Positions 48,456-57,043 of a stretch of DNA of 64,000 nt are shown here, one piece after another. The notes under the pieces were generated by a model. That model was not told where the DNA came from. It ran no database searches and saw only the letters and a program-made list of their open reading frames with translations. Each line of letters starts with the position of its first letter. The stretch's first letter is position 1. Location of the stretch: NCBI RefSeq assembly GCF_003002815.1, contig NZ_PVTF01000012.1, forward strand, positions 186,001 to 250,000, given 5' to 3'. The translations under genes were made by a program, and so were the position numbers. This stretch comes from Umezawaea tangerina. GTDB lineage: Bacteria > Actinomycetota > Actinomycetes > Mycobacteriales > Pseudonocardiaceae.

Positions 48456-51020
48456 GTGGCGGCACCCAACCTCACTCGCGACCAGGCCCAGCAGCGCGCG
48501 GCGCTGCTGGAAGTCGACTCCTACCGGATCGAGCTGGACCTGACCGACGGCGGCGGCAAGCCGGGGTCGGAGACGTTCCGCTCGACGTCGACGGTTGCGT
48601 TCCGCAGCCTGGCGGCGGGGGCGTCCACCTGGATCGACATCGTGGCCGCCACCGTGCACCGGGCCGTCCTCAACGGTGTGGAGCTGGACGTCTCCGGCTA
48701 CCGCGAGGAGGACGGCATCCCGCTGCCCGACCTCGCGGAGACCAACGAGCTGACGATCGAGGCCGACTGCCGGTACATGAACACCGGCGAGGGCCTGCAC
48801 CGCTTCGTCGACCCGGTCGACGGCAGCGTCTACCTGTACTCGCAGTTCGAGACGGCCGACGCCAAGCGGATGTTCGGCTGCTTCGACCAGCCCGACCTGA
48901 AGGCCGTCTACGACCTCACCGTGACGTCGCCGTCGGACTGGAAGGTCATCTCCAACTCCGCGATCGAGTCCACAGAGGACGCCGCGGGCGGCGCTGACAA
49001 GCACACCTTCGGCACGACCAAGCCGATGTCGACGTACCTGGTCGCGCTGGTCGCGGGCCCGTACGCGGAGTGGCGCGACGAGTTCACCGACGGCGACTCC
49101 ACGATTCCCCTCGGCCTGTACTGCCGCGCCTCGCTCGCGCCGCACATGGACGCCGAGCGGCTGTTCACCGAGACCAAGCAGGGTTTCGGGTTCTACCACG
49201 AGGCGTTCGGCGTCAAGTACCCGTTCGGCAAGTACGACCAGTGCTTCGTGCCGGAGTTCAACGCGGGCGCGATGGAGAACGCGGGCTGCGTGACCTTCCT
49301 GGAGGACTACGTCTTCCGCAGCCGCGTGACCCGCTACCTCTACGAGCGCCGCTCCGAGACCGTGCTGCACGAGATGGCGCACATGTGGTTCGGCGACCTC
49401 GTGACGATGCGCTGGTGGGACGACCTGTGGCTGAACGAGTCGTTCGCCACCTGGGCGTCGGTGCTCGCGCAGGCCGAGGCCACCGAGTACAAGCACGCGT
49501 GGACGACGTTCGCGAAGATCGAGAAGTCGTGGGCCTACCGGCAGGACCAGCTGCCCTCGACGCACCCGGTCGCGGCGGACATCCCGGACCTGCAGGCGGT
49601 CGAGGTCAACTTCGACGGCATCACCTACGCCAAGGGCGCCTCGGTGCTCAAGCAGCTGGTGGCCTACGTGGGGCTGGACAACTTCCTGGCCGGGCTGCGG
49701 GTGTACTTCGCCAAGCACGCGTGGGGCAACGCGACCCTGGCCGACCTGCTCGGCGCGCTGGAGGAGGCGTCGAGCCGCGACCTGTCGTGGTGGAGCGCGC
49801 AGTGGCTGGAGACGACGGGCCTGAACCCGTTGCGCCCCAAGTTCTCCGTGGACACCAACGGCAACTTCGCCGACTTCGCCGTGCTGCAGAGCGGGGCCCG
49901 GCCGGGCGCCGGCGAGCTGCGCACGCACCGGATCGCGGTCGGCGTGTACGACGACGACGGCAGCGGCAAGCTGGTGCGCACGCGGCGGGTGGAGCTGGAC
50001 ATCACCGGTGAGCGCACCGAGGTGCCCGACCTGGTGGGGCTCCCGCGCGGCAAGCTGGTGCTGGTCAACGACGACGACCTCACCTACTGCACGATGCGGC
50101 TCGACCCGGACTCGCTCACGACGCTGGTCGACCGGATCTCCGACATCGCCGAGCCGCTGCCGCGCACGCTGTGCTGGTCCGCGGTGTGGGAGATGACCCG
50201 CGAGGCCGAGCTGAAGGCCCGCGACTTCGTGAACCTCGTGCTGGGCGGGCTGCACTCGGAGACCGAGGTCGGCGTGGTGCAGCGGCTGCTGCTGCAGGCG
50301 CAGACCGCGCTGTCGTCCTACGCCGACGCCTCGTGGCGCGACGAGGGCTGGCGCCGGTTCACTACCAAGACCCTGGAGCTGGTGCGCGCCGCCGAGCCGG
50401 GCTCCGACCACCAGCTGGCGTTCGCGAACGCGCTGGCGGGCTCGGTGCTCGACGACGAGGCGCTGGCCGTGGTGCGCGGCTGGTACGACGGCTCGGACGT
50501 GCTGGAGGGCCTGGAGGTCGACACCGACCTGCGCTGGCGGCTGCTCCAGGCGCTCGTCGCGCACGGCGCGGCCGGTCTCGACGAGATCGCCGCCGAGGAG
50601 GAGCGCGACCCCACCGCCACCGGTCGTCGGCGCGCCGAGTCCTCGCGGGCGCTGCGCCCGACGGTCGAGGCCAAGGACGAGGCGTGGGACCGGGCGGTCA
50701 ACGACGACGAGCTGCCGAACGCGGTCAGCGAGGCCATCATCGCCGGCATCCCGCACGCGTCCCAGAAGGCGCTGCTCGCCCCGTACGTCGAGCGGTACTT
50801 CGCCGACGTGACCGGGGTGTGGGAACGGCGCTCCAGCGAACGCGCCCAGTCGATGGTCGTCGGACTCTTCCCGGCGTGGTCCATCACACCCGAGACGGTG
50901 ACCGCGTCCGACGAGTGGCTCGCCTCGGCGGACCACCCGCCGGCTCTGCGCAGGCTCGTGTCGGAAGGCCGCGCGGGCATCGTGCGCGCACTGGCGGCAC
51001 AGGAGTTCGACCGGTCCTGA
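48456..51020 (+). CDS. pepN: Aminopeptidase N (M1 metallopeptidase)
   Basis: 854 residues. The M1 zinc site is [10 protein letters not shown] (305-309) with the distant Glu in NESFA, and the aminopeptidase exopeptidase motif is GAMENAGC upstream of it. Domain order is N-terminal beta domain, thermolysin-like catalytic domain, beta-sandwich and a large helical ERAP1-like C-terminal domain. It removes N-terminal residues from peptides in the cytoplasm and may process products of Clp proteolysis. The GTG start at 48456 is preceded by GAGGTG. Same position as Rv2467. Confidence 0.97.
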
Positions 51021-51120
51021 CGGCTCGGCGGGGTGGGAACGCACGGCCTCCCACCCCGCCGGTACCGGACGTTTTTCCCAGTTCTCCGGTTACGCCCAGT
51101 ACGGTTCTCGTCCGGAACGA

Positions 51121-51156
51121 CCGGAGGCCGCACCCGTGTCGGGGTGCGGCCTCCGG
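51121..51156. terminator. Terminator after pepN
   Basis: Stem CCGGAGGCCGCACCC/GGGTGCGGCCTCCGG around a 5-6 nt loop, 100 bp after the pepN stop and just past the convergent DUF5130 gene. Confidence 0.75.
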
Positions 51157-51172
51157 TGCGTCGTGGGACTGG

Positions 51173-51667
51173 TCAGGCCTTGGGGGCGGAGCCCGCCTGG
51201 TCGGTGAGCATGCGCAGGCCGCCGATGAGGCCACCGGCGAGGTCGCCCTCCTTGAAGGAGGCGACCATGCTCATGACCGCGAGCTTCGCGCCGCGGTCGG
51301 GGATGCGGCGGCGGGACTCCTCGCCGGTGACGATCTCGACGACGCGCTGGCCGGGCGAGACCGCGATGAGGACCGCGTGCGAGGCGCGCGCGCCGACGGT
51401 GGAGTGCATCTCCTCGGCGGTGGCGCGGGTGTCGTCCGCGAGGTCGCCGAGGTACACGCTGAAGTCCAGGCCGGTCTCGCGGCTGGACAGGGTGAGGGCC
51501 TCGTCGAGGCTCGCGAGCTGGCTCGGGGTGAACGGCACGGCGGGCGCGTGCGGCTCGTACATGCGCGCGACGGACAGCCTGCCGCTGTTGGTGATCACCT
51601 CGCCGACGGCCAGGTCGGACGGGTCTTCCTGCGCGCGGCGGGCTACGACGACGTCACCAGTTGCCAC
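51173..51667 (-). CDS. DUF5130 family protein
   Basis: 164 residues, TPM-like fold: ASLDEALTLSSRETGLDFSVYLGDL..., then HAVLIAVSPGQRVVEIVTGEESRRRIPDRGAKLAVMSMVASFKEGDLAGGLIGGLRML. This is the Rv2468c-type family of unknown function, restricted to actinobacteria. GTG 51667 has GGGGAGG at the right spacing; the upstream GTG overlaps that site. It overlaps the ctaJ gene end by 14 bp, so both are coupled. Confidence 0.85.
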   Translation of the reverse strand: MATGDVVVARRAQEDPSDLAVGEVITNSGRLSVARMYEPHAPAVPFTPSQLASLDEALTLSSRETGLDFSVYLGDLADDTRATAEEMHSTVGARASHAVLIAVSPGQRVVEIVTGEESRRRIPDRGAKLAVMSMVASFKEGDLAGGLIGGLRMLTDQAGSAPKA

Positions 51668-51911
51668 GGGCACCTCCCCTGGCAGTGCGTGCGGGGACGC
51701 CCTCGCCGGCCGGGGCCGCGTCGGACGTCTGGTGGGTCGAGCTGACCCCGGCCGGGTTTCCGCTCCACCACACCGGTGCGTAGCCCCACTCCTGCCCAGG
51801 GCGGTACCGGGTGATGCGGGTGGCCTTAGGCCTCAGCGTCAGTAGCGTGATCACGCCGTAGATGGCCAGCGGGATCAGCGCGAAGACGAGCACGGTCTCC
51901 ACGATGGTCAC
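51654..51911 (-). CDS. ctaJ: aa3-type cytochrome oxidase small subunit, CtaJ-like
   Basis: 85 residues: one N-terminal membrane helix (IVETVLVFALIPLAIYGVITLLTL), then a conserved cytoplasmic part ITRYRPGQEWGYAPVWWSGNP and a variable tail. This matches the small subunit found in the actinobacterial cytochrome bcc-aa3 supercomplex and named CtaJ. The GTG 51911 start lies 7 nt after TACCGT on the minus strand, without a ribosome site, which fits a leaderless message. Its position next to the DUF5130 gene is conserved in mycobacteria. Confidence 0.75.
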   Translation of the reverse strand: MTIVETVLVFALIPLAIYGVITLLTLRPKATRITRYRPGQEWGYAPVWWSGNPAGVSSTHQTSDAAPAGEGVPARTARGGARGNW

Positions 51912-51918
51912 GGCGGCT

Positions 51919-51924
51919 ACGGTA
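51919..51924 (-). promoter_or_regulatory. -10 element, leaderless start of ctaJ
   Basis: TACCGT (minus strand) ends 7 nt before the GTG at 51911. Confidence 0.45.
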
Positions 51925-51949
51925 ACCGATCGCCCACGTGGCGGCGCCC

Positions 51950-53149
51950 TCAGGTGCGCATGAGCGGGCGCGCGAGGACGGTGGCGGTGATCACGGTCGC
52001 CGCGCCCGCCACCAGGTAGACCGCGCCGAGCGACGTGGACACGGCCAGCGGGCCCGCGACGGCGGCGCCGACCGGCGACAGCCCCCAGGTGAGGACGCGG
52101 TACGCGCTGGAGACGCGGCCCATCAGCGGGACCGGGGTCAGGCGCTGCCTGCGGGTGGCGGACAGGACGTTCCAGCCCGCCGACGCGACGCCGAACAGGA
52201 GCACGGCGACCACGCCGACCGAGACCAGCGGCACGGCCCCGTACAGGGCGAACGCGGCCCCCAGCAGCACCAGCGCGCCGACCATGACGGGGCCGACGCC
52301 GAACCGGGCGGCCAGCGCCGGGCTCGTGCGGGCGCCCGCGAGCGCGCCGAGGGAGAGCACCACCACAAGCCACGGCACCGCCGACGGCGGCAGGCCGAGC
52401 TCGGTGACCGCGTACAGGGCGAACATGGCGTTGACCGCCGACGCGCAGACCGCCGTCACGCCCACGGCGACCACGAGCACCCGCAGCTCGGGCGACCGGA
52501 AGAGGAAGCCCGCGCCCTCGGCGAGCTGGGCGCGCAGGTTCGTGCGCGGCGGGCGGTCGGGCGCGACCTCGGGCAGCCGGAACACGAAGTACGCGGCCAC
52601 CACGAACGTCAGCGCGTCCAGGGCGAAGCAGGCGGCGGGCTGCCACCAGAACAGGGCGCTCGCGGCGAGCGGGCCGACCAGGTCCATGCCGACCGTCTCG
52701 ACGGTCACGAACCGGCCGTTGGCCTGCTCCAGCTCGGCCGGCCCGGCCAGCTCGACCAGCAGCACCTGCGACGCCGTGTCGGCGAACGTCTCCGCGGCGG
52801 TGAGCAGGAACGCGCACCCGCACAGCAGGGCCACGCCCGCCCGGTCGGTGTACACCGCGAGGGCGAGCAGCGCCGTGACCACGGCCCGGAACGCGTGCGC
52901 GACGGCGACCACCCGGCGGGGCGGCCACCGGTCGACCAGGACACCGGCGGGCAGCGCGACCAGCAGCCACGGCAGCGCCATCGCGACGGCCACCGCGGAG
53001 GCCGCCAGCGGGCTGCGGGTGCTGATCGCGGTGTAGAGCGGGAGCGCGACCGTGCGCACCCCGTCCCCCACCAACGACGTCGCCCAGGCACCGGTCAGCC
53101 GCCGGAACTCCGGCGTCCGCACACCCGTCGCCCGGAGCGCGTCGACCAC
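51950..53149 (-). CDS. MFS transporter (MFS_3/enterobactin exporter-like type)
   Basis: 399 residues with 10-12 membrane helices: FRRLTGAWATSLVGDGVRTVALPLYTA at the start, the loop motif VDRWPPRRVV between helices 2 and 3, ETFADTASQVLLVELAGPAELEQANGR, and PLMGRVSSAYRVLTWGLSPVGAAVAG. This is the MFS_3-like exporter type, often involved in siderophore or drug efflux. The GTG 53149 start has GAGG upstream. It is absent from the M. tuberculosis order and lies beside the repeat-protein gene, from which it is divergent. Confidence 0.88.
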   Translation of the reverse strand: MVDALRATGVRTPEFRRLTGAWATSLVGDGVRTVALPLYTAISTRSPLAASAVAVAMALPWLLVALPAGVLVDRWPPRRVVAVAHAFRAVVTALLALAVYTDRAGVALLCGCAFLLTAAETFADTASQVLLVELAGPAELEQANGRFVTVETVGMDLVGPLAASALFWWQPAACFALDALTFVVAAYFVFRLPEVAPDRPPRTNLRAQLAEGAGFLFRSPELRVLVVAVGVTAVCASAVNAMFALYAVTELGLPPSAVPWLVVVLSLGALAGARTSPALAARFGVGPVMVGALVLLGAAFALYGAVPLVSVGVVAVLLFGVASAGWNVLSATRRQRLTPVPLMGRVSSAYRVLTWGLSPVGAAVAGPLAVSTSLGAVYLVAGAATVITATVLARPLMRT

Positions 53150-53414
53150 GGCACGACCTCGTTTCCGACCTCGGCGGCGAGGGAACTCCCCTGAAGCTAC
53201 GCACCGTGTCCAGACGGTGACAATCGCACCAACGAAGGCCGTTCACGCGGGTCAACGGCTACGACCGGACGGTCTGCGACCGTACGGCGGCGCGCGGCGG
53301 CCGGTTTGGCGTCTTGTCATCGGGCCACTCGGCTTCTAGCTTTTCACCTATACGGGTCTTGCATTTCCTCTATCGACCATAATTCGAGCTTCAGCGCGTC
53401 CAGGAGGACACCAC

Positions 53415-54080
53415 ATGTACACGATCCCCGCTGTCCAGGCCCCCTCCGTCACCCTTTCGAAGTACGGCCAGGTAGCGCACAGCGTTACCACTGTTCAGCG
53501 GCGCGATCAGGCTGTTGCGTCCGTTCGGATCACCATGGACGACTCCGTTCGGATCACGCGACGCGACTCCGTTCGGATCACGGCGGCCGCGGATTCGGTT
53601 CGGATCACCGCACAGGGCGAGTCGGTGCGCATCACGGCGCTGGACTCCGTGCGGATCACCGCTTCGTCCGGTTCGGTGCGGATCACGGCCCGCGACTCCG
53701 TCCGGATCACCGCCCGCGACTCGGTGCGCATCACCGCGCGTGACTCCGTGCGGATCACGGCACGGGAGGACTCGGTCCGGATCACGGCGCTCGACTCGGT
53801 CCGGATCACCGCGCGGGAGGACTCGGTGCGCATCACCGCGCACGACGACTCCGTCCGCATCACGGCTCAGGCGGACTCCGTGCGCATCACCGCGCACGAC
53901 GACTCGGTGCGGATCACCGCGAGCGACTCCGTTCGGATCACCGCACACGAGGACTCCGTGCGGATCACCGCGCACGAGGACTCCGTGCGGATCACCGCGC
54001 ACGAGGACTCCGTGCGCATCACCGCGGACGGCTCGGTGCGCATCACGGCGCGCCGCGACGAGCTCGCGCTGGCGGCCTGA
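53415..54080 (+). CDS. SVRIT(A) tandem-repeat protein, novel
   Basis: 221 residues: an N-terminal 35-residue leader-like part (MYTIPAVQAPSVTLSKYGQV ... TTVQRRDQAVA), then 21 copies of SVRIT, usually DSVRITA followed by 1-2 variable residues (R, L, HE, HD, RE), giving an 8- or 9-residue period, and a short tail RRDELALAA. AGGAGG stands 8 nt before the ATG, a perfect ribosome site. Copies differ mainly at third codon positions (TCC/TCG, GTT/GTC/GTG, CGG/CGC, ACC/ACG), so the peptide is under selection, not the DNA. The alternating polar/non-polar strand-like unit suggests a beta-solenoid or amyloid-like stack; no signal peptide or membrane helix is seen. No family is recognised. A repeated-core peptide precursor is a less likely option. 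Confidence 0.8.
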   Translation: MYTIPAVQAPSVTLSKYGQVAHSVTTVQRRDQAVASVRITMDDSVRITRRDSVRITAAADSVRITAQGESVRITALDSVRITASSGSVRITARDSVRITARDSVRITARDSVRITAREDSVRITALDSVRITAREDSVRITAHDDSVRITAQADSVRITAHDDSVRITASDSVRITAHEDSVRITAHEDSVRITAHEDSVRITADGSVRITARRDELALAA

Positions 54081-54138
54081 GGACCGGACCGCCCGCGAGC
54101 ACGGCCACCCTCAGCACCGCAGGCGCGAGCCCGCCGGA

Positions 54139-54714
54139 CTAGGCAGCGGGCTCGCCGAGGTAGGGCAACCAGAGCGGATCGGCCTCGGTGACGCCTGCCA
54201 GCAACCGCCAGTGCGGCCCCCTGGGCGCGTTCGGCACGACGCGGAGCCGCCACCCCAGCTCGGACAGCAGCTTGTCCGCCTTGCGGTGGTTGCACTTCGC
54301 GCAGCACGCGACGCAGTTCTGCCAGGTGTGGGGCCCACCCCGGCTGCGCGGGACGACGTGGTCGATCGTCTCGGCCCGACCGCCGCAGTACGCGCACCGG
54401 AAGCGGTCCCGGTGCATCAACCCGGCCCTGGTCAACGGAACGCGCCCCCGGTAGGGGACGCGCACGTAGGTACTGAGCCGGATCACGGACGGCACTATGA
54501 CCTCGGCCGACGACGAGTGGACCATGGATCCCGCGGGATCCCCGTGGACGACCTCGGCCTTGCCGCAGACGACGAGCACGACCGCGCGGCGCAGCGACAG
54601 CGCGGTGAGGGGCTCGAACGTGGCGTTGAGCAGGAGCACTTTTCTTCTACCCCAGGGGAACACGACCGGTGCGTGACCGGTACCCTCCCCATTGCGGTCC
54701 CCGTCGTCCGACAC
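54139..54714 (-). CDS. HNH endonuclease family protein
   Basis: 191 residues with the actinobacterial HNH pattern: RKVLLLNATFEPLTALSLRRAVVLVVCGKAEVVH at the start, CAYCGGRAETIDHVVPRSRGGPHTWQNCVACCAKCNHRKADK as the zinc-bound beta-beta-alpha metal motif (two CxxC knuckles and H...N...H). The role is unknown; similar single-copy HNH genes are conserved in this order (Rv2469c). The start is uncertain: GTG 54714 is used here, but a start near VLLLNATFEP is possible, since the first 20-25 residues are not conserved. Confidence 0.85.
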   Translation of the reverse strand: MSDDGDRNGEGTGHAPVVFPWGRRKVLLLNATFEPLTALSLRRAVVLVVCGKAEVVHGDPAGSMVHSSSAEVIVPSVIRLSTYVRVPYRGRVPLTRAGLMHRDRFRCAYCGGRAETIDHVVPRSRGGPHTWQNCVACCAKCNHRKADKLLSELGWRLRVVPNAPRGPHWRLLAGVTEADPLWLPYLGEPAA

Positions 54715-54936
54715 GGAGCGGACGATGGCCTGTTTTTGGCCAGCAGGGACCCTCGGCGCTACCCCGGCCGTAGTCAGGGCGCCGATCGGGGTCGGTTGTC
54801 GGTCTGGCACGCGACCACCTCCACCGGTACAGCCATAGCAGACCACAGATCACCCCCAAAAGGCACGTGTCCCAGCACACCTGAGATCGAAATGTGGGCG
54901 AACGCGGGCCTAACGGTGATGGTTTTCAACCAACGC

Positions 54937-54942
54937 TACGCT
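54937..54942 (+). promoter_or_regulatory. -10 element, leaderless start of the prolyl oligopeptidase gene
   Basis: TACGCT ends 7 nt before the GTG at 54950; no ribosome site is visible. Confidence 0.5.
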
Positions 54943-54949
54943 TCGCGGG

Positions 54950-57043
54950 GTGACTGAGGTTCCTTCCGCAGCTCTGCCTGCGACGATGACCTACCCGGCC
55001 GCCGTTCGGCTCGACCTCGTCGAGCACCTGCACGGCCGACCGGTGGCGGACCCCTACCGCTGGCTGGAGGACGCCGCGGACCCCCGTACGGCCGAGTGGT
55101 CGGCCGCGCAGGACGTCCTGGCCCGGTCGTGGCTGGACGCGCTGCCCGGCCGCGAGGCGCTCGGCGGGCGCCTGCGGGAGCTGACGCGGACCGGCTCGGT
55201 GTCCACGCCGACGTGGCGGGCGGGCCGGGCGTTCTTCACCCGCCGCGGCCCGGACCAGGACCACCCGGTGCTGCACGTGCGCGAGGCCGACGGCACCGAG
55301 CGCGTGCTGCTCGACGTGAGCGCGCTGGACCCGTCCGGGCGCACGACGCTGGACGCGTGGTCGCCCAGCGACGAGGGCACCCTGCTGGCCTACCAGGTGT
55401 CGGTCGGCGGGAACGAGCAGTCGCTGCTGCACGTGCTCGACGTCGACTCCGGCGAGCTCGTCGAGGGCCCGATCGACCGCTGCCGCTACTCCCCCGTCGG
55501 CTGGCTGCCCGGCGGCGAGGAGTTCTACTACGTCCGCCAGCTCGACCCCGCGGACCTGCCGGAGGACGAGCGGCTGTTCCACCGCCGCGTGTGGCGGCAC
55601 CGGGTGGGCGCGGACCCGGCGACCGACGTGCGGGTGCACGGCGACGGCCTGGACCACACCTACTACTACGGGCTCAGCGTGTCGCCCGGCGGCCGGTGGC
55701 TGGTCGTGAGCGGCAAGCCCGGCACGGTCCGCCGCGACTCGGTGTGGATCGCGGACCTGCACGGCGACGCGGAGCTGCGCCCGGTGGTCGACGCCGACGC
55801 CGGTGCCCAGTGCACGGCGTGGGTCGCCCGCGACGGCAGGCTCTACCTCCACACGTCGCTGGACGCGCCGCGGTTCCGGCTGTGCGCGACGGATCCGGTC
55901 ACCCCGACCCCGGAGCACTGGGTGGACGTGGTCGCCGAGCAGGACGACTCGGTGCTCGACGGCGCGAAGTGGCTGGACGGCGCGCTGGTCGTGCTGCGGA
56001 CCCGGCACGCGGTGTCCGAGCTGCACCTGCACGACCCGGTCACCGGCGAGCACCGCGGCCCGATCCCGTTGCCCAGCACCGGCTCCGTGCACGGCATGTC
56101 CATTGTGGACGACGGTCCCGCCGACGACGTGTGGTTCGGCTACTCCGACTTCGTCACGCCGATGTCGGTGTTGCGCTACTCCCTGTCGCGCGGCACGACC
56201 GAGGTGCACGAGGCCGCGCCGGGCGCGGTCGAGCTGCCGGATGTGGTCACGCAGCAGCTGGAGTACACCTCCATGGACGGCACCACCGTGCGGATGTTCG
56301 TGGTGTCCGGCGAACGCAGCCCCGACGAGCCCCGGCCGACGCTGCTGTCGGGCTACGGCGGGTTCGCCGTCGGCCGCGGCCCCGGCTACAGCGCGACGAC
56401 GCTGGCATGGGTCGAGGCGGGCGGCGTGTGGGTGCACGCGTCGCTGCGCGGCGGCGACGAGGAGGGCGAGCAGTGGCACCGCGCCGGGATGCGCGAGCAC
56501 AAGCAGAACGTGTTCGACGACTTCCACGCCGCGGCCGAGCGGCTGGTGCGCGACGGGTGGACCACCCCGCAGCAGTTGGCGATCATGGGCGGCTCCAACG
56601 GCGGCCTGCTCGTCGGCGCCGCGCTGACCCAGCGACCGGAGCTGTACGCGGCCGTGGTGTGCTCGGCCCCGCTGCTGGACATGGTGCGGTACGAGAACTT
56701 CCTGCTGGGCAGGCTGTGGGCCGAGGAGTACGGCACGGCCGCGGTGGCCGAAGAGTTCACGTGGCTTTCGTCCTACTCCCCGTACCACCAAGTGCGCCCG
56801 GAAGTTGAGTACCCTTCGGTGCTGTTCACGGTGTTCGAGTCGGACAGCCGAGTGGACCCCAACCACGCCCGGAAGATGTGCGCGGCACTGCAGCACGCCA
56901 GCGCGTCCGACGCGACGAAGCGCCCGGTGCTGGTCCGCCGGGAGACCGAGGTGGGGCACGCGGGCCGTTCGGTCGGCCGCGCGGTGGGCTTGGCCGTGGA
57001 CCAGGTGACCTTCCTCGCCCACGCGACGGGGCTGAACTTGTAG
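54950..57043 (+). CDS. Prolyl oligopeptidase family (S9A) serine peptidase
   Basis: 697 residues: N-terminal seven-bladed beta-propeller (from [21 protein letters not shown]) and C-terminal alpha/beta-hydrolase domain (about 430-697). The triad is Ser in [13 protein letters not shown], Asp in [14 protein letters not shown] and His in [19 protein letters not shown] and [24 protein letters not shown] are family landmarks. It cleaves short peptides after Pro, or after basic residues if closer to oligopeptidase B. No signal peptide. Starts at a GTG with a leaderless-type -10. Followed by the mscS gene after 13 bp. Confidence 0.95.

Follow-up and report, generated by a model that had tools for sequence, protein, structure and literature searches.

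Many identical short units are strung along one chain in multi-core ribosomally synthesized and post-translationally modified peptides (RiPPs) and in precursors of the yeast alpha-factor type. These precursors, beta-solenoid and beta-helix proteins, the DUF2345/VgrG spike (PF10106; PDB 6sjl) and ClpXP substrates with a transfer-messenger RNA (tmRNA, ssrA) degron or another Ala-Ala end are the described systems closest to the gene reported here. This gene, an open reading frame (ORF) at 53415..54080 on the plus strand of a 64,000-nucleotide stretch of Umezawaea tangerina contig NZ_PVTF01000012.1 (the whole stretch is called the window below), encodes 221 residues with 21 copies of the pentapeptide SVRIT. 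It shares with multi-copy precursors a leader-like N-terminus and many identical units that change together, but no exporter is conserved in its slot, and any processing of the chain would be hypothetical. Its AlphaFold2 strand pattern is that of a beta-solenoid, yet the period varies between orthologues (8/9, 6, 7, 11 or mixtures) and the model of a GTRVT-type orthologue is of low confidence. SVRIT-type proteins score above the Pfam cut-off for DUF2345; unlike a VgrG spike, the protein stands alone at 221 residues, and its sequence match in the PDB reaches only E 0.0093. Finally, the tails RDELALAA, xDFSLAA and ADYALAA resemble the tmRNA tags QRAFALAA, QREFALAA and QRDYALAA, but here the tail is gene-encoded, sits on a tandem array, occurs in half of the distinct proteins and is a putative degron. 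We found no account of proteins built from these repeat words in a literature search that was judged from paper listings, with most subscription papers and all preprints outside its scope, and the family is apparently undescribed. Because the known families that we tested fail, we rate the family and its anatomy as new, a label that does not concern mechanism.

The gene is protein-coding, is inherited with its slot in the Pseudonocardiaceae, and specifies a short N-terminus followed by 3 to 48 Arg-centred pentapeptides. The gene also carries a conserved start-site box of its own, and in many lineages the protein ends in an ssrA-like tail. Because the cores are invariant, spacing and charge are free, the arrays are homogeneous and many lineages carry a degradation-type tail, we favor, at a probability of roughly 35%, a multivalent display protein that would be read motif by motif and be under ClpXP control in the tagged lineages. 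An original prediction, made from the DNA letters and their translations, had described the ORF, its 21 units, the unique N-terminal 35 residues and the Shine-Dalgarno sequence, all of which were confirmed:

53402..53407, plus strand: Shine-Dalgarno AGGAGG, 7 bases ahead of the ATG; similar sites occur in relatives
53415..53519, plus strand: unique N-terminus, residues 1-35; shorter in Lentzea (..RPQA..TLPSYK)
53520..54047, plus strand: array of 21 SVRIT units, also reported by Tandem Repeats Finder
54054..54077, plus strand: C-terminal RDELALAA, a tmRNA-tag-like tail, with the stop codon at 54078-54080

No signal peptide is apparent by eye in the N-terminus, and from this reading by eye we infer a cytosolic location.

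Upon comparison of the window units codon by codon, the DNA variation within the five-residue core proved entirely synonymous: pairwise differences at codon positions 1, 2 and 3 number 0, 0 and 438 (n=21 relaxed units, a unit being any run of five residues that agrees with SVRIT at three or more positions). Fourteen of 20 counted window units are distinct at the DNA level, and the median share of distinct DNA versions per array is 75%. Over the 91 distinct array proteins of the family (a set that leaves out identical copies, the off-slot loci L107 and L108, and any stretch that falls short of three units) the differences are 6186, 9493 and 43043, where the counts at positions 1 and 2 include changes within the serine and arginine codon families and some loose stretches. 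This pattern and the conserved Arg bear out the proposed selection on the peptide, and it is well supported that the peptide sequence is what selection keeps. A non-functional minisatellite, or an RNA-level element that is open by chance, would sit easily with a unit number of 3-48, as repeats expand readily, but not with the codon-position pattern or with the start, ribosome site, tail and upstream box that the orthologues have in common, and we regard it as very remote. Where the original prediction had associated a non-functional repeat with a lack of homologues and with equal change at all three codon positions, homologues exist and the changes among the window units all fall on the third position. 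Folding of the RNA (the first 450 bases at most of 14 chosen genes) was no better than that of 60 synonymous shuffles each (z -2.15 to +2.19), the 5' untranslated regions (5'UTRs) of 45 sequences share no RNA fold, and Rfam gave no match at the gathering score in 50000-57000. A repeat acting at the RNA level was thus rejected on the shuffle z-scores of both signs and the lack of a conserved 5'UTR fold.

Across the family the core is kept as [S/G][V/T/I]-R-[I/V]-[T/S/N/E] while the word itself switches wholesale by lineage. Arg is present in 1497 of 1505 units, with the other positions taken by G/S, V/T/I, I/V and T/S/E/N (leave-one-out counts). SVRIT is the word of 39 of the 91 proteins, GVRIS of 25, GTRVT of 18, GTRIT and GVRVT of two each, and GVRIE, GIRVN, GVRVN, GVRIN and GIRVT of one each. 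When only pattern-conforming units are counted, 78 of the 86 arrays of five or more units consist of a single word, and 83 of 86 are at least 90% pure. On the tree of the neighboring HNH protein, word type changes 11 times versus at least 31 times in 200 shuffles; the SVRIT rows form one group (support 92/70, with the bootstrap not settled) and GVRIS appears in two places. The commonest spacing between units is 8 or 9 for SVRIT and GVRIS, 6 for GTRVT, 7 for GIRVT and 11 for GVRVT, and single arrays combine odd with even steps; the 8-9-residue period first proposed holds for SVRIT-type proteins (spacing 8 in 317 cases, 9 in 249, other values few). Net charge ranges from -11 to +60 and flips sign between lineages, with the GVRIS, GTRVT and GTRIT types all positive and most SVRIT types neutral or acidic. 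Thus, neither a constant period nor a constant charge is selected, and the difference in sign speaks against the ion-binding scaffold of the original prediction.

Two observations concern individual words. In the GVRIE lineage (L094, genome G330), Glu replaces Ser/Thr at position five in all 19 counted units. In GTRVT arrays, for example L225 (G150) and L229 (G136), searches with a GTRVT protein match both strands of the same arrays, and the T-R-V codons can read as the palindrome ACCCGGGT.

The array lies beside a convergent HNH gene in 71 of the 82 Pseudonocardiaceae loci on the HNH protein tree, a hand-chosen set and no random sample:

54139..54846, minus strand: HNH gene (Pfam HNH_5, 9e-12), the convergent marker of the slot, which we do not claim as a partner

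Presence of the array changes three times on this tree, compared with at least nine times in 200 shuffles. Of the 11 array-less loci, six are true empty slots and five come from genus g31, where the slot itself may be missing because the HNH relative is only 52-57% identical and no DUF5130 gene is nearby. The tree excludes L098, L099 and L101 (duplicates), L106 (no array; slot unchecked), L107 and L108, L104 (whose contig ends before the HNH gene), 18 of the 26 loci from named genomes, and the Lentzea-group stretches L052-L073, L075 and L076. In one locus set of 94 rows, in which single species often recur, 91 rows show the HNH gene, and the distance from the end of the array gene to the aligned HNH 3' end is -2 to +66 bases; the gap in the further loci L129-L164 is mostly below 250 bases and once 612. 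Stretches that reach far enough upstream also show DUF5130 and a gene for an M1 peptidase (here named PepN). Rather than an insertion between conserved genes for which nothing comparable exists, as had been suggested, the gene is a regular feature of this slot in the family members sampled, with orthologues across the Pseudonocardiaceae.

The tail was compared with the genome's own tmRNA tag, AKSNDQRAFALAA; every tag from 20 other genomes of the family ends in [FY]ALAA. An LAA end is present in 45 of the 91 distinct array proteins and LAG in two more, and by word LAA is found in 35 of 39 SVRIT, 3 of 25 GVRIS, 5 of 18 GTRVT, one of two GTRIT and one of two GVRVT types. None of 283 control genes, taken by a simple rule on G+C content at third codon positions from 464 kb of the own genome, ends in LAA. 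In BLOSUM62 terms the window tail RDELALAA scores 14 against QRAFALAA, the control maximum being 12, and 36 of 39 SVRIT types outscore all 283 controls when compared with the final eight residues of the genome's tag; since the sequences are related, these tail counts are not independent. The tail changes 10 times on the tree versus at least 15 times in shuffles, it is absent from each of the 21 rows in the larger GVRIS clade, and in 8 of 25 GVRIS types the repeat word is itself the C-terminus. According to PMC7652416, YALAA on GFP suffices for ClpXP in E. coli and LAA alone does not; by analogy, FSLAA or ELALAA may function as degrons in these hosts. Because the tail is missing in about half of the proteins, ClpXP is not the general core of function. 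This weighs on the idea of a ClpXP decoy or throttle, in which a tagged, hard-to-unfold or slippery repeat would occupy the protease: the tail does stand far above background in the SVRIT types, but the array persists without it in half of the distinct proteins and the invariant Arg would be unnecessary, which leaves this reading improbable.

Upstream of the gene, the relatives share a layout of TTGT, about 17 bases, a TA-containing hexamer and then TTTTCACCTrTAyGGgyCTTGC:

53314..53319, plus strand: putative -35-like hexamer TTGTCA, 17 bases before the -10-like hexamer; TTGT is conserved in most upstream alignments
53337..53342, plus strand: putative -10-like hexamer TAGCTT, assigned by conservation, mostly TAnnTT in the family
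53341..53362, plus strand: start-site box TTTTCACCTATACGGGTCTTGC, whose 15-base core is conserved; the only exact copy in the own genome

The 15-base core (at most two mismatches, at most 260 bases upstream) precedes 87 of the 91 distinct genes. Among the 89 genes whose best core match has at most five mismatches, it lies 56 to 61 bases from the start in 63 and 38 or 39 bases in 24 (the Lentzea group), with two outliers. On the tree the box accompanies 68 of 71 array loci and none of the 11 array-less ones (at most two mismatches; the 11 include the five g31 loci). Because a consensus scan reported no promoter at the hexamers, it is from conservation that we infer a sigma-70-type promoter. Besides the exact copy, the own genome has four places with two mismatches, versus one for a reversed control; a regulon sharing the box was rejected on these unconvincing places, although a more degenerate regulon would escape the scan. 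A nucleic-acid binder that regulates its own gene through the start-site box would explain the conserved box, of which the own genome has no further exact copy, and would suit the positively charged GVRIS, GTRVT and GTRIT types. The mostly neutral or acidic SVRIT types, however, still have the box, and no DNA-binding family exceeds its Pfam cut-off, so that we find such a regulator hard to credit. A near copy of the box core, ATTTCACCTGTACGG, lies at L166 (own genome C2:63597-63611, minus strand), about 45 bases before an ATG whose downstream ORF starts like a secretion signal.

Four Pfam cut-offs are exceeded by the window protein, those of DUF2345 (88 bits, 7.2e-25), ChapFlgA, Sarcoglycan_1 and DUF3540, and none in NCBIfam. 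DUF2345 is likewise above cut-off for a second SVRIT type (L009; 4e-20), whereas the GTRVT orthologues L146 and L132 match none of the four families and the GVRIS orthologue L111 matches only Sarcoglycan_1, below cut-off. Because these orthologues in the same slot lack an above-cut-off match, the Pfam matches probably reflect strand periodicity, and membership in DUF2345/VgrG was rejected on the three orthologues without a profile match. Neither a VgrG core nor type VI neighbors were found by Pfam for this stand-alone 221-residue gene. PHROGs returned a few matches (E 3e-6 to 9e-4), to families without an assigned function that differ per word type. The earlier verdict that the protein is unlike any family thus holds in substance, as none of these families fits the orthologues tried, though not literally, given the four cut-offs.

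AlphaFold2, run on 28 sequences, models the window protein as a solenoid with one strand per unit (predicted local distance difference test, pLDDT, 79.4; predicted template modeling score, pTM, 0.82), as the original prediction of a beta-solenoid or amyloid would have it. VIA-align gives this model high Z scores to many beta-helix chains (best 16.6), several of them at a root-mean-square deviation of about 12, and Foldseek finds no match in the PDB at E 0.001 (best 0.49). In a beta-solenoid or cross-beta fiber the strands would stack, with V/I inside and an Arg/Ser/Thr ladder outside, and LAA would clear unassembled chains. However, PMC11795689 reports that AlphaFold2 draws confident but unreal solenoids from repeat sequences, random repeats among them, and the GTRVT orthologue L135 reaches only pLDDT 56.5 and pTM 0.43. 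In addition, the period depends on lineage, and mixed odd and even steps would flip the faces. The solenoid is therefore possible though weakly supported, and we give a solenoid or fiber perhaps one chance in several; the variable spacing and charge fit separately read motifs better than one solenoid.

In the multivalent display protein that we favor, each [S/G][V/T/I]R[I/V][T/S/N/E] unit would form an extended strand, with positions 2 and 4 on one face and 1, 3 and 5 on the other, and would be bound singly by one common cellular partner. Spacers would act as linkers and copy number would determine valency. Proteins with an xLAA tail would be cleared fast by ClpXP, possibly with bound cargo, so that the level of a tagged protein would track its dedicated promoter. 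A shift of partner preference in a lineage would then lead to replacement of all units together. Several results weigh against this picture: the AlphaFold2 model of the window protein suggests a folded array; 46 of 91 proteins do not end in LAA (44 when LAG is counted as equivalent), among them 22 of 25 GVRIS and 13 of 18 GTRVT types; three of the 71 array loci lack the box; some loci retain only 3 or 4 units; and a search confined to the slot identified no partner protein. A more specific and tentative version, which would make this a new class of protein, is a self-tagged multivalent bait with its own family-wide start-site operator, which would capture the partner and deliver it to ClpXP, or from which ClpXP would release a lineage-specific peptide. 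One slot, occupied throughout a family of soil actinomycetes, in which the word is rewritten in every copy while Arg is kept would be a rare natural experiment in the concerted evolution of a recognition motif, and the ssrA-like tail offers a direct experimental handle on function. A real bait of this kind would amount to a natural multivalent degrader, and a protein that serves as a peptide source would open a new intracellular route to signals.

By Pfam, the genes around the array in the window encode an M1 peptidase, DUF5130, a major facilitator superfamily (MFS) transporter, HNH, an S9 peptidase and an MscS-type channel. A small ORF at 51654-51935, without a Pfam match, is presumably the one that the original prediction named ctaJ. 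The transporter gene had been proposed as the exporter of peptide cores cut from the array:

51950..53149, minus strand: MFS transporter gene (Pfam), by co-occurrence a sporadic neighbor outside the system

With the window transporter as tblastn query, 8 of 26 long-flank loci (L005-L030) yield no relative, and only 4 of 39 listed loci (L079-L118) and 1 of 36 (L129-L164) have one. Given these 8 loci and its absence from almost every other genus read, the MFS gene is a passenger and not a partner; MFS export was rejected for want of co-occurrence with the array across loci, and with it the exported-core proposal. The broader idea of a multi-copy precursor, from which ClpXP and peptidases would yield lineage-specific signals of 6-9 residues, draws on the lineage-specific word that is altered in all copies together, on the ssrA-like tail in many proteins and on the M1 and S9 peptidase genes that flank the window slot, possibly by coincidence. 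ClpP yields short peptides. The spacer residues vary, however, the tail is absent in half, the MFS gene is not conserved and the N-terminus shows no signal peptide by eye. Among the window neighbors Pfam also revealed no RiPP-modifying enzyme or dedicated exporter, the MFS gene being sporadic. We consider this precursor unlikely.

All three genomes of the own GTDB genus carry the gene, and the protein of genome G001 is identical to that of Umezawaea endophytica (L002, L005). Among named genomes, one scan turned up 26 loci, which belong to Lentzea, Umezawaea and Actinosynnema and to one strain titled Nocardia sp. NRRL S-836 (L027), which falls among Lentzea on the HNH tree and is possibly misnamed. 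A search of the family matched 111 of 390 genomes in 20 of 46 genera, a list that includes false and off-slot matches and misses many members. Of 40 such places fetched, 37 are arrays beside the expected neighbors, L106 has none, and L107 and L108 are off-slot. Conversely, among 39 sampled genomes without a match (some unlisted and picked by handle), 38 have an HNH relative; the stretch was read in 36. In 25 of these an array of three or more units built from a different word is present, and four such arrays are just 3 or 4 units long. A candidate second array in the own genome (G000:C3) was rejected as a low-complexity frame.

Searches at order and class level matched 66 of 397, 19 of 394 and 201 of 397 genomes, counts that also cover members of the family, and many of the extra-family matches are several frames or both strands of one stretch. 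None of the nine outside loci read (L230-L238) is a true member: none has two core units in frame, and only L230 has the HNH gene, without an array. No members were found in phages. Four Bacillus plasmid records, L241 (CP120579.1) and three more, match the window protein at 25-34% identity; these are hypothetical proteins that may share only a strand-like periodicity. In genus g23, L107 (G218) and L108 (G215) have a separate small ORF with 4-5 DSVRIT(SDP) units off the HNH slot, the N-terminus of which resembles a signal peptide, and another g23 genome (G222, L131) has GTRVT in the slot; the off-slot ORF may be a paralogue, a capture or a chance likeness. The smallest occupants of the slot itself, at L147 (G378), L130 (G229) and L152 (G362), are ORFs of 31 residues (four GVRIN units) and of 49 and 63 residues (three units each), which may be decayed or minimal functional versions.
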